The notes beneath the pieces are model-generated. The model worked only from the letters and a program-made list of their open reading frames with translations. It was not told the DNA's origin and searched no databases. A stretch of 64,000 nt of DNA from a virus, in the IMG/VR virus record IMGVR_UViG_3300017987_004587, positions 23,558 to 87,557 of that record. The stretch is one strand, 5' to 3'. Below are positions 34,061 to 46,840 of this stretch, one piece after another (the stretch's first letter is position 1; each line of letters starts with the position of its first letter). Position numbers and translations under genes: made by a program.

Positions 34061-34462
34061 TCACTTCTTCTTTTGTTCTTCAATATATTTCTTGATTGTT
34101 TCTTCATTAACTTGACCTACACCACCATAATAAGTGCTTTTTGACCATAAACCACTACCCCAGAATTTTTTACCTTTTAATTCAGGAAACAAAGTAAAAA
34201 TTTGAACCGCAGTGATACTTTTAATTGTTTTAACAATATTAACCGGGGTTACAAACGGGTCTATTTGTAAAAATATATGGACATGATCAGGCATAATTTC
34301 AATGTTTTCCACTAGCCACTTATAATTAATGCAAATTTCACCAATCAAATGTTTAAGATGTACTTCAATAGGTCCAACTAAAACTTGATGTCTAAACTTT
34401 GTACAAAATACAAGATGAAGACCAATTTGATGTACACAATGAGAAGATTTTATTAACTTCAT
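34061..34462 (-). CDS. tnpA: IS200-type Y1 transposase TnpA
   Basis: A 133-residue HUH single-strand transposase. MPDHVHIFLQ is the His-hydrophobic-His metal site, and the nucleophile is the Tyr in ETIKKYIEEQK near the C-terminus. Length is normal. It makes the single-strand cuts at the two hairpins. Appears intact. Confidence 0.93.
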   Translation of the reverse strand: MKLIKSSHCVHQIGLHLVFCTKFRHQVLVGPIEVHLKHLIGEICINYKWLVENIEIMPDHVHIFLQIDPFVTPVNIVKTIKSITAVQIFTLFPELKGKKFWGSGLWSKSTYYGGVGQVNEETIKKYIEEQKKK

Positions 34463-34513
34463 GTTTCTTCTTTTTAATCAGTAATTATTTACTAATTATA
34501 CAATTAATAAAGT

Positions 34514-35641
34514 ATGAAGAGAACAATTAAAATTCGAGTGACATCAGAAAGGCCAGAGGATCTTCTATCTCTTATGGAATCTTATAGTCAAATTTACCAA
34601 ATACATTCTAACTGGGCTTTTCAAAATAAAACCTACTCAAAACAAAAAGCACACGAATCTCTTTATCTAGATATCAGAAGATGTTATACAGATATACCAT
34701 CGGCCTTAATTCAATGTGCTAGAGATAATGCTCTAGAATCAGTCAAAGCAATTAAATTTAAAAGACAACCTAAACCTAAAAGATATGCCACTATCAGATA
34801 TGACCGCAGAACCGCAACTCTAAGAGGGGAGCAACTTACTATTTCTTCAATAGGTAAAAGACAAAAATTTATTTTGACTATACCAAATTATTTTAAAGAT
34901 ATTTTGAACACTTGGAAATTTACAGGTTGTACTTTGTCATATAATAAGAAAAAACAATTTTGGTGCCATTTGAACTTTGAAAAAGAATCTCCAAACAAAC
35001 AAACAGGTAAGGCTTTAGGCATTGACCTTGGCATTCATAATATGGCGATGACATCAGATGGAGATAAATTTTCAGGCAAAGAAGTTAAAGCCCACAGAAG
35101 ACGCTACCTTTACAATAGAAAAACCCTGCAGACAAAAGGCACTCCTTCAGCCAAAAGAAAGTTAAAACAACTTTCTGGTAAGGAGAAGCGGTTCAGTCAG
35201 CAGGTTAATCATAACATTTCAAAACAACTTGTTCATCTCCCAGTTTGTGTTCTTGTGTTAGAAGATTTGTCTAAGATAAATAAAAAGAAGGGTAAACATT
35301 ATAACAAACGCATTTCTGATTGGTCATTTGCGCAGCTTCAAAAGTTTATCTTCTATAAGGCTGAGGCTCTGGGTAAGACTGTTGTATTTGTTGATGCTAG
35401 ATATACGTCACAAAAGTGTAACTGTTGCGGATATGTCTCTAAAACAAATCGAAACAAAAACAAATTTACTTGTATTAAATGTGGTTACTCAGAACATGCT
35501 GATGTGAATGCTGCAAAGAACATCAAAGATAATTACAAACTCTCTACCCAAGTAGGTAGAGCAGGGTGCAGTCAATCACCCAAATGTAACACATCTTATG
35601 ATGTAGTTACAAGCCTTGGGTCTCGTACCCAAGGTAGTTGA
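34514..35641 (+). CDS. tnpB: TnpB RNA-guided nuclease of the IS element
   Basis: A 375-residue TnpB. The RuvC acidic residues are Asp171 (GIDLGIHNMAM), Glu250 (VLVLEDLSKI) and Asp330 (HADVNAAKNI). The zinc finger is Cys302, Cys305, Cys320 and Cys323. Length and catalytic set suggest it is active. TnpB cuts targets matching the sequence beside the right end, next to a TAM matching the left flank, which helps the element persist. Its 3' end overlaps the right hairpin. Confidence 0.93.
   Translation: MKRTIKIRVTSERPEDLLSLMESYSQIYQIHSNWAFQNKTYSKQKAHESLYLDIRRCYTDIPSALIQCARDNALESVKAIKFKRQPKPKRYATIRYDRRTATLRGEQLTISSIGKRQKFILTIPNYFKDILNTWKFTGCTLSYNKKKQFWCHLNFEKESPNKQTGKALGIDLGIHNMAMTSDGDKFSGKEVKAHRRRYLYNRKTLQTKGTPSAKRKLKQLSGKEKRFSQQVNHNISKQLVHLPVCVLVLEDLSKINKKKGKHYNKRISDWSFAQLQKFIFYKAEALGKTVVFVDARYTSQKCNCCGYVSKTNRNKNKFTCIKCGYSEHADVNAAKNIKDNYKLSTQVGRAGCSQSPKCNTSYDVVTSLGSRTQGS
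35500..35637 (+). ncRNA. Predicted omega RNA of TnpB
   Basis: By analogy with ISDra2 and related elements, the guide RNA covers the 3' end of tnpB and the right hairpin, with the guide drawn from the flank just outside: TAGTTGACTCTCACACTTTG (35635-35654). The extent on the left is a guess. Confidence 0.4.
35614..35634. repeat. Right-end hairpin of the IS element
   Basis: CCTTGGGT-CTCGT-ACCCAAGG, the partner of the left-end hairpin, differing at one loop base. Confidence 0.8.
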
Positions 35642-36552: not shown

Positions 36553-36915
36553 TTAGATATTTTTGAATGAATTGGTATTAGACCACCCAAAAGGATAAGC
36601 TTTTGCTTCCGGCAACGCAGCCAAGATGTTCTGAACCCCTGATTTATTAAGGCTGTGTACCCATATCCTGGGAGGTTTAAAATGAGGATTTAATTCAAGC
36701 CATTGGGCTACTGCATAACCAGTCCCTACCCCAGATTCAACCATTTCTTTGCCCCCGAGATCATGATCAAGCCATAACTCATCCCATTGTTTTTCCTGAA
36801 GTTGTTCTATACAATCAGTAACAGTATCAACTATAACTACTGTACTTCCAATGAATTTCTGCCGAAATGCTTTGACACGTTCTGGATTATCTTCGAGTAT
36901 TAGAATCTGGGCCAT
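36553..36915 (-). CDS. Cyclic-phosphate processing receiver-like (cREC) protein
   Basis: A 120-residue receiver-fold protein. ILILEDNPERVKAFRQ, LWLDHDLGGKEM (about 48) and PPRIWVHSLNKSGVQNI fit the cREC group, which was predicted to act on cyclic-phosphate nucleotides or RNA ends rather than as a two-component regulator. In phages these may counter nucleotide-signalling defences or process RNA. I see the motifs; the function is from family knowledge and not tested. Confidence 0.75.
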   Translation of the reverse strand: MAQILILEDNPERVKAFRQKFIGSTVVIVDTVTDCIEQLQEKQWDELWLDHDLGGKEMVESGVGTGYAVAQWLELNPHFKPPRIWVHSLNKSGVQNILAALPEAKAYPFGWSNTNSFKNI

Positions 36916-36951: not shown

Positions 36952-37503
36952 TCAATCAACCAAATTAACAATCACTTTTCTATTCTTACTTAGCACATAA
37001 AAATGACTATTTAAATGCCCTTCAGGGAAGAGATCTAATCTACAAACCATAACAGATGACCAAAGTATGGCCATAAAACCATATTTAATAAGAGAAGGAC
37101 TCATAATTAAATCGAGTACATCCCTTCCAAATCTTCTAATGTCTGAATAGATCTTAGGGGTGAAAACACAAGCAATAACTCGTTCATCTTTTTCTTCGAT
37201 TTTAGCAAAAACATCTGATAAATTGTCTGGAGTGAGGGTTTTTAACTTCTGCTTCATAACAATATCATTGTCGGATATGCTTATTCGAACCTTGATTAAA
37301 TCAAGAAAATCTGGTGCTAAAATATCTAAAGGCCAAACAAATTGCTCTGAGTTAGTTTTAAGTCTTAAAATTAACTCAGAGTTGCTTGGAATCTTTTCGA
37401 CTAATTCATTCTTTTGTAATTGACGTGCTTGAGCAGGATATAGATCAATAAGTTCAGTAAGATTTGGTGCTAAAAGTTTAATTTTTGTGCTCGTGTTAGA
37501 CAT
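36952..37503 (-). CDS. Short protein related to the major capsid protein
   Basis: A 183-residue protein. The stretch DVFAKIEEKDERVIACVF followed by YSDIRRFGRDVLDL aligns with the capsid protein's DAFALIERHDLRVARLFF and YTDVRKFGRDILDI without gaps, and the match runs on through LIKYGFMAILWSSVMVCRL versus LLKTGLQANLWGAQLMVSR. An upstream VWPLDIL also matches VIFPLFEI. The N-terminal arm and extended loop of the capsid protein are lacking. It may be a minor capsid variant, an assembly regulator or an anti-capsid decoy. Its AT-rich composition differs from the capsid gene. Confidence 0.72.
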   Translation of the reverse strand: MSNTSTKIKLLAPNLTELIDLYPAQARQLQKNELVEKIPSNSELILRLKTNSEQFVWPLDILAPDFLDLIKVRISISDNDIVMKQKLKTLTPDNLSDVFAKIEEKDERVIACVFTPKIYSDIRRFGRDVLDLIMSPSLIKYGFMAILWSSVMVCRLDLFPEGHLNSHFYVLSKNRKVIVNLVD

Positions 37504-37699
37504 GGATAAGGCCTTCTAAAATAAGACGAAGTTATCTCACCTAACTAGGAGGCGGTCTAAAATCTTAACCAAACTTTGGTTAGTGCTAATTATACAAAGT
37601 GGGGTTAGTATAAGTTTGATGTTTTCACTTTAGGGTCTCCTTTCTCTGATGTCTTAACTGATCTATTTTTTGTACCCAGCATTGGGAGTGAATATTTCT
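37504..37699. other. Regulatory intergenic stretch, no gene
   Basis: No convincing gene. On the minus strand TTTGTATAAT (-10 box TATAAT at 37589-37594) could start transcription towards the capsid-like gene at 37503. A palindrome, TAACCAAA-C-TTTGGTTA (37566-37582), lies where the transcript would begin, as an operator would. The -35 region is weak. Confidence 0.4.
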
Positions 37700-37849: not shown

Positions 37850-38047
37850 TTAAATTCCCCTTAGTGTCTGCTGATATGCAAGATTCTCCAAGCGCTCATC
37901 CTCCAGGGACTTCCGTGCAAGGTTAAGCCCATGTAGGATCAGCCGCTTCCTCTGGTGCTCTTTCGAGCAACAAGCGCAATCGTAGCCACCATAAAGAAGG
38001 TAGACCCTTGCAGATTCAAGATCGCTCCATGTTAGTGCTGTCTTCAT
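37850..38047 (-). CDS. Small hypothetical protein
   Basis: A 65-residue protein from MKTALTWSDLESARVY, with AGGG upstream. CACCSKEHQRKR could bind a metal; the rest is helical and charged. Island gene of unknown function. Confidence 0.6.
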   Translation of the reverse strand: MKTALTWSDLESARVYLLYGGYDCACCSKEHQRKRLILHGLNLARKSLEDERLENLAYQQTLRGI

Positions 38048-38058
38048 TGTACTTTTCC

Positions 38059-38256
38059 CTACAGTAGGTTTGGCCACACATCAGGAGCCTGACTCATTTT
38101 AGCCTGAATGTTGCGTCGTACCCTGTCAATGACTGGCCCTGGACCAGTCCGACGTCGAATCTCATCAATGGTACGAATCCTTCCACAAGAACGACATTGC
38201 CATAAATCGCCCCACGCTTTCTCCCACTGGATTTCTCCGCATTCGCATTCGTTCAT
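38059..38256 (-). CDS. Small zinc-ribbon protein
   Basis: A 65-residue protein: CECGEIQWEKAWGDLWQCRSCGRIR (residues 4-28, two Cys pairs) followed by a basic helix. GAGG upstream. Probably binds zinc and possibly nucleic acid. Confidence 0.65.
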   Translation of the reverse strand: MNECECGEIQWEKAWGDLWQCRSCGRIRTIDEIRRRTGPGPVIDRVRRNIQAKMSQAPDVWPNLL

Positions 38257-38290
38257 TGCACTTTACCTCAACTGTTCAAGTAAACTGCCT

Positions 38291-38500
38291 TCATTGCTTT
38301 TCGAACATTTTGTCTTTTGCCTGCTGCATGTCATCCAAAATAATTAAGATGTCCTCACAGACGGCAATCATCAGGTTTCGATTTTCTGCGGGAAGATCCT
38401 CCCACGGCACAGCCGTTTCGGGCCGGGTTTTGTACCCAAACTCCGGAGCCCGCTCTTCGTATCTCTTATGGAAAAACCTTGCCATTCGAACTGCGTTCAT
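38291..38500 (-). CDS. Conserved small phage protein
   Basis: A 69-residue protein from MNAVRMARFFHKRYEERAP. The blocks APEFGYKTRPETAVPWEDLP and NRNLMIAVCEDIL recall a short conserved protein common in phage and prophage accessory regions (function unknown). AGGAGAGTGAAG precedes the ATG. Confidence 0.7.
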   Translation of the reverse strand: MNAVRMARFFHKRYEERAPEFGYKTRPETAVPWEDLPAENRNLMIAVCEDILIILDDMQQAKDKMFEKQ

Positions 38501-38594
38501 CTTCACTCTCCTATTATCTTGCAACGTCTCTTGAAACCTGATATCATACTCCTGTCAACCAAACCCGGGCCTCAGCATCGTGCTGGGGCCTTCT

Positions 38595-38927
38595 TTATTG
38601 CTCTCGTACAGAACTGCCTTGCTCTTTTACGGAAGTGTATTGCAGATCCGCTGCAAACACAGCAAACGTGCGAGCCATCTCCAGAAGACGAGACTTGCAC
38701 CTCTCATAAATTACCGGTAGATCGTCGTCATTGTCCCATGTGTCATCGTTCTCCGAGTCCCAAATGACCTCGCGCCCCAACATGATTTGGAAGTAACCAG
38801 AACATGGGGCGCACAAGTAGGCGAACATTGGTGCCTCTCCGTTTACAGCAAAAAGATTCTCTTCGAATTCGTCCGCGAGAAGGTCAACTGCTCGCTCCAC
38901 TTCCTTGCGTAGTTCTTTGTATGCCAT
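38595..38927 (-). CDS. Hypothetical protein
   Basis: A 110-residue protein, MAYKELRKEVERAVDLLADEF onwards, with GGAGG upstream. CAPCSGYFQIML is a Cys pair; a WDSENDDTWDNDDDL acidic stretch follows. The tail EQGSSVREQ resembles other gene ends in the island. Confidence 0.68.
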   Translation of the reverse strand: MAYKELRKEVERAVDLLADEFEENLFAVNGEAPMFAYLCAPCSGYFQIMLGREVIWDSENDDTWDNDDDLPVIYERCKSRLLEMARTFAVFAADLQYTSVKEQGSSVREQ

Positions 38928-38973
38928 TACTCCTCCGTTGAACTGCCTTGCTTTTCGTCTGTTTTGTCTTCTT

Positions 38974-39366
38974 TCACTCTTTTGGTAAACTGCTCAATTG
39001 TGCTTTGGCCCAGGTCTTCCACTTGGCTGCGTGGCGTTTGAGTTTTGCCCTGGCCTCGGTCGCGGTCATGCCGTGGTCCCGACGGAAGCGGCGCCAGAGG
39101 GTGCGCCTATAATTCGTGTTGTCGCCTGGGGTCTGGATGTCATTCATGGCCCGGATGTACCACCACCCATCACCGTCCAGGATGGAACATCCATCCGGAT
39201 CGCCGTGTCTGTTCGCCGGACACCTCCTGCAATGATAAACGAACCCAGCCTCCGCCCGAAGACCACACACGCACGGACGACAAACGCTCTTACCCCGTGC
39301 GATAGCTTCGTATGCTGGCACCAATCGTTCTAGCACCAGTTCTGCAAACTTTTGTGTCTTAGTCAT
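38974..39366 (-). CDS. Cys-rich basic protein
   Basis: A 130-residue protein. Cysteines in VCRPCVCGLRAE and YHCRRCPAN with CSILDGDGWW suggest zinc binding. The C-terminal half is very basic with many Arg and Trp (RRTLWRRFRRDHGM), so nucleic-acid binding is plausible. AAGGA precedes the ATG. Its end is followed by a 17-codon open stretch ending KQGSSTEE, perhaps a frameshifted tail. Confidence 0.62.
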   Translation of the reverse strand: MTKTQKFAELVLERLVPAYEAIARGKSVCRPCVCGLRAEAGFVYHCRRCPANRHGDPDGCSILDGDGWWYIRAMNDIQTPGDNTNYRRTLWRRFRRDHGMTATEARAKLKRHAAKWKTWAKAQLSSLPKE

Positions 39367-39381
39367 TTTTTTATCCTTTTT

Positions 39382-39657
39382 TTAGTGCGAAAAGTTAAAT
39401 AAGAGCCGGTGAGCGGTGGCGTTTTCGCCGGCGCCATATCGCCCCATCGCCACGGAGCACCCCTCGCCGGGGCAAGCACTCCATTTCGTCCGGCCAAGGG
39501 ACTGGTGAGGAGCAAACCAGGCCGAAAGGCGCGGGCCGGATTTGAACCGGCTTGAGAGGTTGCTTCCACTATGCAACATGCTGGGGCAAAAATCCCTGTT
39601 CTCTCGGGCTGCAATTAATGCCCGCGTGTTCCCATCACGCCGCCGCGCCATCTTCAC
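39382..39657 (-). CDS. Doubtful ORF with a genuine-looking start
   Basis: A 91-codon frame, MARRRDGNTRALIAARENRD onwards. The stereotyped AGGAGAGTGAAG site before the ATG argues for translation. The content is low-complexity and basic, and it overlaps a tRNA-like fold. It may be a true small gene, or a remnant whose start survives. Confidence 0.35.
   Translation of the reverse strand: MKMARRRDGNTRALIAARENRDFCPSMLHSGSNLSSRFKSGPRLSAWFAPHQSLGRTKWSACPGEGCSVAMGRYGAGENATAHRLLFNFSH
39528..39649 (-). other. tRNA-like cloverleaf of 122 bases
   Basis: On the minus strand GGCGCGG (39649-39643) can pair with CCGCGCC (39534-39528), and GCCGG-TTCAAAT-CCGGC at 39551-39535 is a perfect T-arm. Two hairpins sit where D- and anticodon-arms would be, plus a large stem-loop region of about 50 bases. 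No regular anticodon loop with U33 is found and no CCA is encoded. It may be a decayed or intron-bearing tRNA, a tRNA mimic, or an old integration remnant. Confidence 0.35.
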
Positions 39658-39674
39658 TCTCCTGTCAAATTGCC

Positions 39675-39959
39675 TTATTCTCCTGTTATTGCATGATGGG
39701 CAGCGCCTGCTCTACACTTTGCACAATCACACCGCCATTCGAGTAAGGCTTTCAATCCTTCTTTGGTCATTTTCCACGACAAGGATTCTGGATATTGATG
39801 TCCGCATTTGACACATTCCCACAGCAGCCTTGCACCACTACGTTCAGCCGCGCATTCTACGTCTATATCTGCTGGATCATTGGACAATCGCCGTAGGCGC
39901 ATCAGCACTTCAAGCATCGCCGGATTCGGGTATTTACAACGATCAGGTTTACTTGGCAT
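39675..39959 (-). CDS. Small protein with zinc-ribbon-like Cys pairs
   Basis: A 94-residue protein from MPSKPDRCKYPNPAMLEV; AAGGAG lies eight bases upstream. CVKCGHQYPE and CDCAKCRAG (about 53-83) resemble a zinc ribbon. Island gene; the longer frame to 40058 overlaps the next gene and is not used. Confidence 0.65.
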   Translation of the reverse strand: MPSKPDRCKYPNPAMLEVLMRLRRLSNDPADIDVECAAERSGARLLWECVKCGHQYPESLSWKMTKEGLKALLEWRCDCAKCRAGAAHHAITGE

Positions 39960-40185
39960 TTGTTTGCTCCTTACTGAGAATGGATTTATACGGATCAGGA
40001 TACTCCTGCTCGTATTCCGCAAGCATTTCACGAGCGTGCGTTGCCGCATTTTTTGCACGTTCGATTACATCTTCCATGAAGACGCAGGTACCGTAAGGCC
40101 CAATATCCTCCAGGGCCTCAATCGTTTCCGATAGGATCGTCTTGAGGCGAATGCGCGGATCCTGGCGTCTTCTGTGTTTCAGCAT
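39949..40185 (-). CDS. Small helical protein
   Basis: A 78-residue protein, MLKHRRRQDPRIRLKTIL onwards, then an acidic helix (VIERAKNAATHAREMLAEYEQ). Overlaps the next gene start by 11 bases. Function unknown. Confidence 0.62.
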   Translation of the reverse strand: MLKHRRRQDPRIRLKTILSETIEALEDIGPYGTCVFMEDVIERAKNAATHAREMLAEYEQEYPDPYKSILSKEQTNAK

Positions 40186-40218
40186 CAAGTTTCCGTTTCA
40201 ATTGGACCGTATCTATTA

Positions 40219-40905
40219 CTACGTTACGATTGTGCAGCACCTTTCTTTGATTGCATGCCGCAAGATTTGCAATTGTGGCGGGTAAATATCGTCATCGTGT
40301 AAATCAACGTCCATGCCGTGTTCTTTGCTGAGGTAGTCCGAAATCAAAACAGCCAATGTTGACTTTCCAGAACCAACGATGCCGCTGATTGTGATATGAA
40401 GATTGGACTGTCTTTCTATTGTTCTTTCCTTCGTTGAATTGAGCAGATCCAATTGCTGCTTGAGTTCAGATACTTCTTGGCGCAGACGGTCACGCTCCCA
40501 TCCGATTGCACAAATTTTATCTACGATGTGTGTATCACTAACTTTGCCCAGGAAACCGTCTGCAACTTCGTGTGCCTTCTTCAGCCATGTTTCAGCTCGA
40601 TCTTTTTCGCGGACTATCTGTGCTATCGGACGGCCCAGACTTTTGTCTATGATATCGGCGGTATACAACGTTGATTCCCACGTGTTATCTCCGTACTCCG
40701 CGCAAAGTTGTCGCAGTACTTTGATCGTTTCTTCTCGTTCGATAAGAAGCGCGGCCGCTTTGCGCATTTCCTTGTCCGTTCCGGGCTCAATCATATCCAA
40801 ATGACGTACCGCGTTGACCATACACTGCAACCATGCGGCGCGTTCGCCTAATTCGAATTTAAGTTCCTCGCGGGCCATCTGTTCTTCATTTGGTTCATCC
40901 GGCAT
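40219..40905 (-). CDS. Coiled-coil protein with C-terminal P-loop
   Basis: About 228 residues from MPDEPNEEQMAREEL, with AGGAGG before it. Residues 1-175 are helical and rich in Glu, Lys and Arg. ISGIVGSGKSTLAVL (about 179) is a Walker A P-loop, followed by DVDLHDDDIYPP. Only about 50 residues follow the P-loop, less than a full kinase, so the NTPase domain is truncated, or the site has another use. Confidence 0.62.
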   Translation of the reverse strand: MPDEPNEEQMAREELKFELGERAAWLQCMVNAVRHLDMIEPGTDKEMRKAAALLIEREETIKVLRQLCAEYGDNTWESTLYTADIIDKSLGRPIAQIVREKDRAETWLKKAHEVADGFLGKVSDTHIVDKICAIGWERDRLRQEVSELKQQLDLLNSTKERTIERQSNLHITISGIVGSGKSTLAVLISDYLSKEHGMDVDLHDDDIYPPQLQILRHAIKERCCTIVT

Positions 40906-41206
40906 CATCTTCCTCCTGCTTGAAGTGGTTGAAGCCTTCCATCGTGATATGTAGTTTCCAGTGAAAAGATAATTGCATGTCTTTATCCATGAATGGCACA
41001 AAAGGACAATCTGGGGGAATACGGCGAGCAGCGTACACTACTCCATCTTCTCCGACAAGTTCAAATTCACGGACGTATACTCTTTCACGTGGCATTGGGA
41101 AGGTTACATCGTCCGTGATTATGGCATCGTTCTTGTGAACTACGACGGCATGTACTGCTTCGGATTTGAGATTATCGTCTTTGTTTAACCGGATGTAGTA
41201 TTTCAT
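40895..41206 (-). CDS. Hypothetical protein
   Basis: A 103-residue protein, MKYYIRLNKDDNLKSEAVHAV onwards; AAGGAGG precedes the ATG. Beta-rich with a central ERVYVREFELVGEDGVVYAARR block. No recognised domain. Confidence 0.65.
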   Translation of the reverse strand: MKYYIRLNKDDNLKSEAVHAVVVHKNDAIITDDVTFPMPRERVYVREFELVGEDGVVYAARRIPPDCPFVPFMDKDMQLSFHWKLHITMEGFNHFKQEEDDAG

Positions 41207-42280: not shown

Positions 42281-43471
42281 TCACCAGATGCCTTGTTTAA
42301 GCGCTTGTACGTTAATTTTTGAGAGGTCGTAGTTTGAGGTGACATCGTATGGTGATTCGTTTGGTTTGAGTTTGAGTTTTCCTCTGAGACTTCGAATGTC
42401 TAGGGCAGGAATAAGAAAGAGAGCGAGGATTTTTCTATAAGATCTATTTAGACCAACAAAAAAGTAATTATCTGCGAGTTCTCTTGTTTTGATTTCTTTT
42501 CGCTTAAAATTAAAACAACCATTATTATCAACAGCACTCGTCTTAACATCTATTTTACCCAAAAAAGGCTCAATAAAGTCATAAGGTGAATCAATACCTT
42601 TTTCTATAAGCATATCTTTGGCTTGTGGGTATAACTTGAAAAAGATTAGTTCTCCTAAACGGCCTTTCCATAATGGAATCATTTCCTGTAATTTAGTTAA
42701 ATCATAAGCCCACTTAGGGTGCACTTTAAATAGCTTTTCAAGGTAAAGATTGAGGTTGTTGAGGTCATAGAGATGAGTAACTTCAAAGGGTTGTAACCAC
42801 AAAAGAGCATGATCTTCTACTACTGTTTGAGCATCATAACAAACAACCATAGAACCGCTCAAAAAGATTTTTCGAGGAATAAGCCAAATCTTCGCTATTT
42901 CTATTCTTCCTTTTTCGAAACCTATACAAAATAAATAGTCACAATCTTTTTTAGCATGTTTTTGAAAAGGCCAAGATTTAGAACCGAGGCGTTCTACAGG
43001 TTGACAAGTTTTAACATCTACCCGTTTTAAAATAGAATGATCAAAATCATAAGAGGATGTATCACTTTCTTCTAAATTTAAATCCCGACTATCTGGATAA
43101 AGATACAAAAATAGAGTTTCACCAATACGTCCGAAAAACTTTTCATTTTTTCGCATTTCAGAAAGACGTTGTAAAAGAATTTCTTCTGAATATTTTTGGA
43201 ATGTGGGTCTATATTTTTGTAAGCGTTCTACAACCTCATCAAAACCTTTAATTTCGCATTTAGGACAAAGATATCTAGAGTTCTTATAAGAATCATCAAA
43301 GAATTCTTTTTGGCACTCTTTACAAATTTTCTTTCTCTTCTGTTGCTGAGATTCTTTCTGAGCCAATTTTGAACATTCAAAACTACAACGGAATTGTTTC
43401 GAATGCTTAGGTTTAAATTTCTTGCCACATTGTGGACAAATCATTTCTAGATATTGGTCACTTTTCTTCAT
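42281..43471 (-). CDS. Zinc-finger protein with two PD-(D/E)xK-like nuclease domains
   Basis: A 396-residue protein. Residues 10-75 hold Cys-pair zinc ribbons (CPQCGKKFKPKHSKQFRC, CKECQKEFFDDSYKNSRYLCPKC). Two similar domains follow: GRIGETLFLYLYPDSRDL ... YDF ... RVDVKTCQP, and GRLGELIFFKLYPQAKDM ... YDF ... KIDVKTSA, each with Glu, Asp and D-V-K-T in the PD-(D/E)xK order. The zinc module is shared with the next gene. Likely a restriction-like or homing nuclease; a tandem duplication in one chain is unusual. Confidence 0.72.
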   Translation of the reverse strand: MKKSDQYLEMICPQCGKKFKPKHSKQFRCSFECSKLAQKESQQQKRKKICKECQKEFFDDSYKNSRYLCPKCEIKGFDEVVERLQKYRPTFQKYSEEILLQRLSEMRKNEKFFGRIGETLFLYLYPDSRDLNLEESDTSSYDFDHSILKRVDVKTCQPVERLGSKSWPFQKHAKKDCDYLFCIGFEKGRIEIAKIWLIPRKIFLSGSMVVCYDAQTVVEDHALLWLQPFEVTHLYDLNNLNLYLEKLFKVHPKWAYDLTKLQEMIPLWKGRLGELIFFKLYPQAKDMLIEKGIDSPYDFIEPFLGKIDVKTSAVDNNGCFNFKRKEIKTRELADNYFFVGLNRSYRKILALFLIPALDIRSLRGKLKLKPNESPYDVTSNYDLSKINVQALKQGIW

Positions 43472-43481
43472 TTGTTATTCC

Positions 43482-45143
43482 TTAGTCCAAAGATTTACAT
43501 GCAGAACATTTTGAATGCTTAGCATTTTTAGTTAAATTATCCCCATGAAAAATTTTTCCGCACTTTCTACAGAAACGATAATTTACATGTTCTTTTCTTG
43601 GAATCATATTCTTTAGCAAGAAATCAACTAGATCTTTTGAACAAACCAAACAATATAAAGGAGTATCTTTAGTATACCAAATTACTTCTTTGTTACAACG
43701 AGAACAAATTGGTACTGGACGGGTTTTGAGTTGGCGGCAGGTGGGGCATTTGCGGAATTGACCTTTGCCTCTTAGTTCTTCAGGTACTTCAAATGACTCT
43801 CCACACCAAGTGCAGATTTTCTTTTGGGGGCCTTTATCTAGACGTTGTGAAACATAATTTTCTTTGTAATGTTCTTTAAAAGATTTATCTTTACATTCTG
43901 GAGAACAATATTGTGAGTTGCAAGATTGGCGGATGCTAACCCTATAAGGTTTATTGCAGTATTTGCAGTATTTTGTAGTGAGACGTTCTGACATTGGTGT
44001 ATTCCTTAATTCTTGACAAGTTAAACAATATCTAGAAGAGTTCGCATAAGAATCATCGTAGAAAGATTGTCCACATTGTTTACAGATTTTATTGCGTTTG
44101 GCTTTGTTTTGTTCTTTCTTTCGAGCGTCGTGACCTGTGCGAGAACATTCTTTAGAGCAATAAATGCTATGGCTTGCGTTATTTGTCTCAAACTCTTTCT
44201 TACAATCAGGGTGTTGGCAGATTCGGGTCTCAAAAATCTTACCTTCTGCAAAACGTCTTTTAACAGTGACAATCTGTGGTTTTGCTATCTTGCGAGAAGG
44301 TGTTCCATTCAGATAGTCTTGAGGAATTTTATACATGAGATCTTTGGTGACATATTGTCTTAAATGGTCATAAAAATCCTCTGATGAGTCAGATAAAATT
44401 CTGAATTTACAAAATAACTTACCAGATTCTAAAGTAGAGATATTCCCAAAACAAGTATTAAGATTGTATTTTTCCCATAAAATCTTAACAATCTTTGTTT
44501 TAATTTCTTTAGAAATAAGGAGTGATGTCCCAATAACAAAAGAGCTATTATCAAGTTCTCCATCATCTAGATACCAAAAGGCTAGATGATCTAAACTTAA
44601 ACGTTTTAATAAGTCGTCTGGAAACACTTTAATAGCTGGGCCTTTTTCTTGTTCCAAATAGTATAATTCGCGATAATGATTAAAAATAGGATGTCCTATA
44701 GTTTTAAATCCTTTGCATGAATATTGAGTATTAGAAACCTTTTCAACTTTAATCTTAGCAAGCCCCTGTCGAGTATTCTCTGTTAAAAAAGCATCAAGAA
44801 TTTGAGCTTTGTATCGTAGATATTCAAGTTGCCCAGTAGAATGTCCACATCCATAATAACAAAGACCTGAAGAAGTAATACCAATCGTGCTATCGCCTAA
44901 AAGTGTACCCTCAATAAAACTTTGTTGAGATTCTGTTAATTTAATATCGCCCACGACCTTTTTCCATCTCTTAGATCGACGGATATTCCACTTATGTCGG
45001 GAACTATAAATATGATCATGGTTGTAACCCAGACGTTTAGCAATTTCGTTATCTGTTAAATTTTCCTCTTCAACTAGATATCTTAATAATTCATAGGTGA
45101 GTTGAGTTTTGTGTTCTTTCTTTGATTTTGCTTTTTCATACAT
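43482..45143 (-). CDS. LAGLIDADG homing endonuclease with C-terminal zinc ribbons
   Basis: A 553-residue protein. Residues 15-60 are an HTH (LTDNEIAKRLGYNHDHI). FIEGTLLGDSTIG (76-88) and LAFWYLDDGELD (187-198) are the two LAGLIDADG catalytic motifs of a single-chain enzyme. From about 300 come six Cys-pair ribbons, one (CKQCGQSFYDDSYANSSRYC) nearly matching the neighbour's. Homing endonucleases cut a specific site and spread their own gene. This one sits just behind the capsid gene, beyond its terminator. GGAGG lies before the ATG. Confidence 0.88.
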   Translation of the reverse strand: MYEKAKSKKEHKTQLTYELLRYLVEEENLTDNEIAKRLGYNHDHIYSSRHKWNIRRSKRWKKVVGDIKLTESQQSFIEGTLLGDSTIGITSSGLCYYGCGHSTGQLEYLRYKAQILDAFLTENTRQGLAKIKVEKVSNTQYSCKGFKTIGHPIFNHYRELYYLEQEKGPAIKVFPDDLLKRLSLDHLAFWYLDDGELDNSSFVIGTSLLISKEIKTKIVKILWEKYNLNTCFGNISTLESGKLFCKFRILSDSSEDFYDHLRQYVTKDLMYKIPQDYLNGTPSRKIAKPQIVTVKRRFAEGKIFETRICQHPDCKKEFETNNASHSIYCSKECSRTGHDARKKEQNKAKRNKICKQCGQSFYDDSYANSSRYCLTCQELRNTPMSERLTTKYCKYCNKPYRVSIRQSCNSQYCSPECKDKSFKEHYKENYVSQRLDKGPQKKICTWCGESFEVPEELRGKGQFRKCPTCRQLKTRPVPICSRCNKEVIWYTKDTPLYCLVCSKDLVDFLLKNMIPRKEHVNYRFCRKCGKIFHGDNLTKNAKHSKCSACKSLD

Positions 45144-45308: not shown

Positions 45309-46232
45309 TTATCTTGTGATGTCAAGCCTGGTGAGTGCGAATGGGTTATATGCCCCGATCCCTAAATTCTCGAATATCGAAAATCCAATTGTTCTCGCCT
45401 TAGGATCATCTGCACTTAGAACCGTGAGTTCCGTACGAACGGGAATGCGGCCAAAGAACTCGGGCTCGGCACACACGTACACGCGTCCCACCGGCACTAT
45501 CCTAGACACCATCAACTGGGCTCCCCAAAGGTTTGCCTGCAACCCAGTCTTCAGCAAGGTCGCCTGGCTCTCGATATCCAAGATATCACGGCCAAACTTC
45601 CTCACATCAGTGTAATCTCTCGCGTTGAAGAACAACCTCGCAACGCGAAGATCATGACGCTCGATCAGAGCGAAGGCATCTGCCAGCACATCGCCCGTGA
45701 TTGGGGCAGCCACTGGGATATCAGGATTAGGAGCCAACCCACCAAAGCCAGCCGCCTGAATCGCATCCATGATGGCGAAGACCCTGGTATCTTCCTCCGC
45801 CTGAACCTCGCTCTTCGCCAAGTCCTGTGCTCTCTCGATCAGGTCATATCTGCGTTCCTTGACCTGAGTCAGCGGGATTTCAGGGTTGGATGCAATCTCA
45901 AAGAGAGGAAAGATCACTCTCTTTGGCTTCTGGATTGCCAGCACGTTTTCACCCTCTTCCCCTATGACGTATGCGACTGCATCTGGGTCCCTGTCATAAA
46001 TAGGAAGAGCACCATCTGGCAGTTGCTCGACCAAAAAGGTCTTTCTGCCAATACTCGTATAGTCCCGACGAGCCCTAAGAGGCTGAATCATCGAAGCAGC
46101 CAACTTCTGTCGACCTGCAGCGGTCTTGATCAACTCCCCGATGATCTGACTCCTGGCCTCGTTGCTAAGGACTTCTCCATGTCCTTCGCCTGCCATCTGT
46201 AAATCCTCCTTTAACTTTGCTATCGCATCCAT
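45309..46232 (-). CDS. Major capsid protein (HK97-like, inferred)
   Basis: A 307-residue protein. The fold is inferred from size, position directly downstream of protease and scaffold genes, and the block TDVRKFGRDILDIESQATLL and WGAQLMVSR, typical of phage capsid proteins of the encapsulin-like group. The N-terminal 50 residues are helical and could be the scaffold-like arm. Base composition is much more GC-rich than the neighbours, fitting a highly expressed gene. It overlaps the upstream gene stop as TGATG, and a terminator follows. Confidence 0.82.
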   Translation of the reverse strand: MDAIAKLKEDLQMAGEGHGEVLSNEARSQIIGELIKTAAGRQKLAASMIQPLRARRDYTSIGRKTFLVEQLPDGALPIYDRDPDAVAYVIGEEGENVLAIQKPKRVIFPLFEIASNPEIPLTQVKERRYDLIERAQDLAKSEVQAEEDTRVFAIMDAIQAAGFGGLAPNPDIPVAAPITGDVLADAFALIERHDLRVARLFFNARDYTDVRKFGRDILDIESQATLLKTGLQANLWGAQLMVSRIVPVGRVYVCAEPEFFGRIPVRTELTVLSADDPKARTIGFSIFENLGIGAYNPFALTRLDITR

Positions 46233-46840
46233 TAGACGCGAAGAGCAATCCTCATCGAGGTGTCCGCTGTCGTCGGCACCCTGGTCAGGATGGCCACTGG
46301 CTGATTGTTGGCTGCAGCGATGATTCCATTTGTTACCGTTGGTGGATAATTAGTGAGATCATCAGGAGCAACGTTTGTCAGCAGACCCGATCTGCTGTCA
46401 CAATACAGCCTATCTCCAGCAGTATAAGTAAGAGTAGTTGCAGTGTGAACACCATAGGTATCCCTGGCATTCGTTTCATAGTACCTAACCTCGTATGTGC
46501 CCATGCTGTCGACATACGGGGCCCGTCCACTCGCTGCTGCCGAGGTGGACTGGAAAGCGTACCCAGCCGCATCATTGATGAACAGACCTAATGGTGTCTC
46601 AGAAAGATCCGGACTTGCAGCCGGAGTAGGTCCACCAATCAAATCCGTACCCTTAACCACTGCAACGCTACCAGCAAGCACGCCTGCCGGAGTCGCAGCT
46701 GAAAGGGTGGAATTGATGGTAGTCCCAGCCGTGAAATTCACTCTCGTGAATCCATTGGCATCCAAGAAACCAAGGCTGTTCCGGTGCCCGACATACAGAA
46801 TGCGGAGTCCGTAATCGGCACCCTGAACGCTGACTACCAT
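46232..46840 (-). CDS. Probable capsid decoration or head-stabilising protein
   Basis: A 202-residue protein rich in Ala, Thr, Gly and Asn (NFTAGTTINSTLSAATPAGVL), with no Cys-pair or enzyme motif. Position just upstream of, and coupled to, the capsid gene and shared GC-rich codon use suggest an abundant head protein, such as a decoration protein. Homology not recognised. Confidence 0.68.
   Translation of the reverse strand: MVVSVQGADYGLRILYVGHRNSLGFLDANGFTRVNFTAGTTINSTLSAATPAGVLAGSVAVVKGTDLIGGPTPAASPDLSETPLGLFINDAAGYAFQSTSAAASGRAPYVDSMGTYEVRYYETNARDTYGVHTATTLTYTAGDRLYCDSRSGLLTNVAPDDLTNYPPTVTNGIIAAANNQPVAILTRVPTTADTSMRIALRV

Follow-up and report, generated by a model that had tools for sequence, protein, structure and literature searches.

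Full-length paralogues of capsid proteins are already known. In capsids with the HK97 fold, the A (axial) domain of the major capsid protein (MCP) packs tightly around the capsomer centres (PMC8569155). A capsid homologue known to redirect assembly is Ccm of the satellite SaPIbov5, which acts on the assembly of its helper phage, consists of a complete HK97 fold with an N-terminal delta domain and forms pentamers (PMC8569155). Furthermore, the MCP is a trigger of host immunity and directly activates CapRel (PMC9712102) and Thoeris (PMC11312562). A cultivated jumbo phage, Tunturi_5, has also been described (PMC11924767).

The window analysed here, a stretch of 64,000 nucleotides, is part of an IMG/VR virus record of 87.5 kb that is itself probably a fragment. 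Its MCP (P0002, 307 aa) is encoded on the minus strand at 45309..46232 and belongs to the type of Bacillus phage G, as indicated by PHROG 2522 (E 1e-48) and by the match of the family profile to PDB 6wkk (gp27, E 8e-75). It shares 77% identity with the MCP of an uncultured phage of 485 kb. By means of PHROGs, the genes for the portal, the terminase and the head protease were recognised as well. The MCP gene and a decoration-like neighbour (45309-46840) have a G + C content of 52-53% within an AT-rich genome and use a distinct GC-rich codon set (r 0.19 and 0.11 to the bulk genes). The same GC peak is repeated at the MCP region of locus L004. The stretch directly downstream of the MCP gene (42281-45143) carries genes for a LAGLIDADG homing endonuclease and for an HNH-like protein, and relatives of the former are present in 23 of the fetched loci.

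A second reading frame related to the MCP lies at 36952-37503. It comprises 183 uninterrupted codons starting with ATG and encodes a protein of 183 aa (P0001). A Shine-Dalgarno-like AGAAGG is located 8 nt 5′ of the start codon (37512..37517, minus strand). P0001 and the MCP are both encoded on the minus strand, for which the preliminary description had given no orientation. The gene was described there as AT-rich and as lying about 8 kb from the MCP gene among accessory genes; this agrees with its G + C content of 0.32 vs. 0.52 for the MCP gene and with its position 7.8 kb downstream of it, outside the head gene block. Its codon usage is ordinary for the window (r 0.84 to the bulk genes). A promoter scan around the gene resulted in fewer matches than in shuffled sequences.

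Several other features were recorded in the surroundings. The gene at 36553-36915, which is separated from P0001 by 36 bp on its downstream side, carries a cREC (cyclic-phosphate processing receiver) domain (E 5e-16). Just past the genes adjoining P0001, an IS200/IS605-type element with a Y1 transposase and a TnpB-like gene is found at 34061-35641. Between P0001 and the MCP gene, an island of small ORFs with a G + C content of 44-57% and foreign-looking codon usage extends from 37850 to 41206. At 1764-25944 there is a long series of genes that, judging the translations by eye, resemble sugar-modifying enzymes, glycosyltransferases and methyltransferases and that is unusually large for a phage.

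The relationship of P0001 to the MCP was analysed by pairwise, profile and shuffling comparisons. BLASTP aligned residues 90-156 with MCP residues 178-245 (45498..45701, minus strand) at 44% identity over 68 residues (E 4e-16). With hhalign, residues 87-164 were matched to columns 177-253 of a profile built from 22 MCPs (probability 97.8%, E 1.1e-12), so that similarity at chance level, for which a profile search had been proposed as the check, is ruled out. The C-terminal half scored at z = 27 against shuffles. P0001 thus contains an A-domain at 37012..37245 (minus strand; residues 87-164), which is homologous to MCP residues of about 175-252. The second half had been said to align without gaps, which holds through FGRDVLD and K-x-G-x-x-A-x-LW; a single-residue gap is required before MV-x-R. 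In searches against Pfam no match was obtained for P0001, and the only match among the PHROGs was a weak one to an MCP (E 0.019).

The N-terminal segment (residues 1-86; 37246..37503, minus strand) is not MCP-like by sequence. Residues 1-88 compared with MCP residues 1-175 gave z ~0, and 965 of 2000 shuffles scored as well. For this reason, the upstream V-x-PL-x-I block, which had been noted as a further match to the MCP, is no evidence of homology and was rejected as such. Neither the N-arm nor the E-loop nor the P-domain with its spine helix is recognisable in P0001 by sequence or profile, the profile alignments beginning at residue 87, which bears out the earlier observation that the N-arm and much of the rest are missing. 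A similarity of this segment to the N-arm, E-loop and P-domain at the level of the fold may exist. As the homology is confined to the A-domain, P0001 represents an axial domain without recognisable N-arm, E-loop and P-domain, and the view of the gene as a stand-alone, shortened MCP relative is confirmed in the form of an A-domain joined to a different N-terminal part. A recent copy of the MCP gene was considered as the origin and rejected, because the identity is 44% and the two genes are far apart in G + C content and codon usage.

The AlphaFold2 model of P0001 is of low confidence (pLDDT 45.5), the alignment rows being mostly MCPs. Several of the best PDB matches of this weak model are HK97-fold capsids, none of them significant (E >= 0.35). 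The MCP itself, modelled as a control, reached a pLDDT of only 52.5, with about 70-84 in its A-domain.

In the viral contigs no close relatives of P0001 itself were found, and the search of phage records with P0001 yielded MCPs only. Two clear relatives were identified by their A-domain match: one of 203 aa in locus L058 (L058:15796-16407), 5 kb downstream of the MCP gene, and one of 208 aa in locus L136 (L136:3620-4246), 0.7 kb downstream. As with P0001 at 7.8 kb, the A-domain is in both cases encoded outside the MCP gene, downstream of it and on the MCP strand. An alignment of the three proteins revealed no further member, either in the viral contigs or among the genomes of bacteria and archaea, of which 84,980 were scanned; these scans were run through short peptide patterns, which divergent members may escape. 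Genes of this kind are absent from phage G and Tunturi_5, and none was detected in the 20 kb examined of L004, the MCP of which is 95% identical. The distribution of the stand-alone A-domain gene is sporadic.

The proteins of L058 and L136 are 62% identical. For this pair (203 codons), dN and dS were estimated at 0.27 and 1.45 by NG86 and at 0.26 and 2.0 by maximum likelihood. The resulting dN/dS of about 0.13-0.19 is low in both halves, compared with about 0.03-0.05 for the MCPs of the same loci. This kind of gene is therefore under purifying selection, less strongly than the MCP; since P0001 has no close ortholog, the estimate comes from the L058/L136 pair alone. In the A-domain tree, L058 and L136 fall within the clade of their own MCPs (100/98), and P0001 is placed on a long branch; a single clade of all three was not rejected (p-AU 0.057). 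The N-terminal part of P0001 weakly resembles those of the L058/L136 pair (z 5.9 against L058; hhalign P 0.0014 with a probability of 17.8%), and a common N-terminal domain of the three proteins is not claimed.

When the MCP profile was run over whole records, many more small ORFs were detected, each of which contains a single MCP piece. The pieces in the fetched loci (E<=1e-3) correspond to the N-arm in ten cases, the A-domain in nine, the base of the E-loop/P-domain in six and the C-terminal part in two. To these counts, portal and head protease served as controls: in the same 26 records, all carriers of a phage-G-type MCP and most of them fragments, 20 unlinked stand-alone MCP pieces were found at this threshold, compared with one portal piece and no head protease piece. 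Length-weighted tests of MCP against control pieces resulted in p-values of 2e-8 and 5e-7, which are nominal because phylogeny links the pieces to one another. The contrast is somewhat inflated, as conservation is highest in the MCP profile (mean column identity 78% vs. 55% and 47% for the two controls) and old portal or protease pieces are harder to detect. Given these counts, the small MCP shard genes of phage-G-type huge phages appear to form a class specific to the capsid rather than general debris. An origin as pseudogenes or general gene debris is also disfavoured by the low dN/dS of the L058/L136 pair.

Comparison of the A-domain shards with 151 distinct MCPs revealed that one MCP-invariant glycine of the fold type is kept in all nine shards. 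Among the other MCP-invariant residues, a glutamine is lost in each of nine shards and a tyrosine in each of six. This pattern would fit a folded domain that has been released from the constraints of the capsid.

Further peculiarities were observed among the pieces and head genes of other records. In record G015, at about 267-272 kb (L112:7409-11893, L091), there is a cluster of small genes with different MCP pieces (N-arm, C-terminal, A-domain), most of which end in a V-M-E-S tag. The tag is lineage-wide and occurs in the G015 record (L099-L118) and in pieces of G061 (L260-L263) and G064 (L258, L259, L264). A C-terminus of the form [VI]-M-[ED]-S was present in 78 of 3563 ORFs of 50-250 aa in 400 kb, compared with a single case across three permuted-order controls. 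Since its codons vary, the tag is conserved at the protein level. It frequently follows a Cys-rich segment and might act as a signal for sorting or for degradation. No such tag is found in the window, and it was rejected as a part of P0001, being absent from this protein and from those of L058 and L136. The C-terminal MCP piece at L266:3528-3800 contains, in frame and with MCP-like flanks, a Cys/His-rich segment that has VME at its end, as if this tail module could be inserted into genes. In G014, G016, G023, G026, G054, G070 and others, the portal or head protease matches are split inside single frames of 900-1900 aa, which suggests putative inteins in head genes. In L269 (G051) and L270 (G052) the MCP gene is interrupted, residues 3-30 being located about 1-2 kb ahead of the remainder, which suggests a putative intron.

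By sequence homology, P0001 is the A-domain of the phage's own HK97-fold MCP joined to a different N-terminal segment. The preferred explanation, to which a probability of roughly 0.4 is assigned, is that it acts in trans on capsid assembly as a non-assembling capsid mimic, either interfering with assembly or tuning it. According to this proposal, the A-domain would still fold and bind the partners of the MCP A-domain, most likely neighbouring MCP subunits at the capsomer centres. Lacking a P-domain, P0001 could not extend the shell, and assembly would consequently be blocked, delayed or biased. The target could be the capsid of a superinfecting related phage or the phage's own MCP, in which case P0001 would serve as a regulator. 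The A-domain homology, the purifying selection on the two relatives and their position downstream of the MCP gene on its strand, the capsid specificity of the pieces and the sporadic occurrence favour such a mimic. The loss of MCP-invariant residues, the ordinary codon usage, the packing of the A-domain at capsomer centres in solved HK97-fold capsids and the precedent of a capsid homologue that redirects assembly (PMC8569155) point the same way. On the other side, an A-domain without a P-domain might fail to bind capsomers, and P0001 might damage the assembly of its own phage unless timed or tuned. In a wider form, which is held equally tentatively, huge phages of the phage G type would keep and diversify small MCP-derived proteins (N-arm, E-loop base, A-domain and C-terminal) as mimics against rival shells or capsid-sensing immunity, with P0001 as the A-domain kind.

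Next in order stands an immune decoy, which is possible but rather doubtful. Here the free A-domain and the other MCP shards would occupy MCP-recognising host sensors without triggering them, so that capsid-sensing defence is already neutralised by the time the MCP is produced. The direct activation of CapRel (PMC9712102) and Thoeris (PMC11312562) by the MCP speaks for it, and the capsid specificity and sporadic distribution of the shards, together with the range of MCP segments used, are compatible with sensors directed at different regions of the protein. However, no sensor is known for an MCP of the phage G type, and Thoeris reportedly senses a hexameric form of the MCP that a lone domain would not present (PMC11312562). 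The A-domain homology of P0001 and the location of all three A-domain genes downstream of the MCP gene on its strand are also consistent with a minor constituent of the virion or a determinant of head size. In this case P0001 would be incorporated into a few capsomers or into the portal vertex and would shape the head, much as SaPIbov5 Ccm is incorporated in pentamer form and determines the size (PMC8569155). This is unlikely, as a recognisable N-arm, E-loop and P-domain for a hold in the lattice are missing, whereas Ccm keeps the full fold; moreover, the gene is absent from most relatives, including the region within 10 kb of the MCP gene of the closest one, and its codon usage, unlike that of the MCP and decoration genes, speaks against high expression. 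The sporadic occurrence, the lost invariant residues and the missing shell-forming parts, together with a codon usage like that of ordinary genes, speak in particular against a bulk subunit of the shell. A bulk minor-capsid role is thus less likely, and an interfering or mimicking role would fit better.

Slightly less probable again is a reuse unrelated to the capsid, in which the A-domain fold has been co-opted, e.g., as a binding module of a host-takeover protein. The accessory surroundings of P0001 and the loss of many MCP-invariant residues in the A-domain shards would agree with this, as would the shards of the G015 type, which bear Cys-rich tails common to non-capsid small proteins; yet P0001 is one of many capsid-derived pieces, and random reuse would not prefer the capsid over portal and protease. 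Very improbable is a relic, i.e., a partial MCP duplication caused by homing endonuclease activity or recombination and now decaying. The endonuclease genes next to the MCP gene and the widespread LAGLIDADG relatives could account for such a duplication, and the dN/dS estimate was obtained from the L058/L136 pair and not from P0001. Nevertheless, the P0001 frame has stayed intact with a ribosome-binding site despite the old divergence, its codon usage is adapted to the genome, and both the dN/dS of the pair and the capsid specificity of the pieces speak against decay. Assembly interference or tuning is therefore ranked before the decoy, the minor virion part, the unrelated reuse and the relic.

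The literature, with most subscription papers outside the coverage, was searched for paralogues and fragments of the MCP and for capsid proteins acting as decoys or dominant-negative factors, and nothing comparable was found; neither a free A-domain nor a set of MCP pieces specific to the capsid and spread across huge-phage genomes has a counterpart in the literature searched. Should the pieces prove to be mimics, huge phages would have converted a protein that is both their most abundant and often sensed into a means of countering rivals or host immunity. The MCP shards would then be small natural reagents for mapping the MCP surfaces that immune sensors and assembling shells recognise.

Compared with the known systems, the MCP family of phage G gp27 (PDB 6wkk, PHROG 2522) is the source of the P0001 A-domain. 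P0001 differs from this family in having the A-domain only, with the other domains unrecognisable, and in lying outside the head gene block; with one MCP domain present, it is by its sequence not an MCP. The triggering of CapRel and Thoeris likewise marks the MCP as a recognised surface in the conflict of phage and host that a mimic could exploit. In these systems the trigger is the full-length MCP, and the accessible parts of the reports describe no phage-encoded, MCP-derived decoy (PMC9712102, PMC11312562). A stand-alone piece of the same MCP type is gp172 of the Tunturiibacter phage Tunturi_5 (XOB77615.1; L274:3431-3724), whose host group is the Acidobacteriota. This protein of 97 aa has a hydrophobic N-terminus followed by a segment closely matching its own MCP and, unlike P0001, bears the E-loop base/P-domain segment and no A-domain. 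As it is encoded by a cultivated phage, the question of the MCP pieces is open to bench testing. Like SaPIbov5 Ccm, P0001 is a relative of the capsid protein with a gene separate from that of the main capsid protein, and an action of it on assembly is possible. It differs from Ccm in that it is predicted to be unable to form a shell and is encoded by a phage instead of a satellite. P0001 is not classed with redirecting proteins of the Ccm type, which have the full fold, although by analogy it may work in a similar way.
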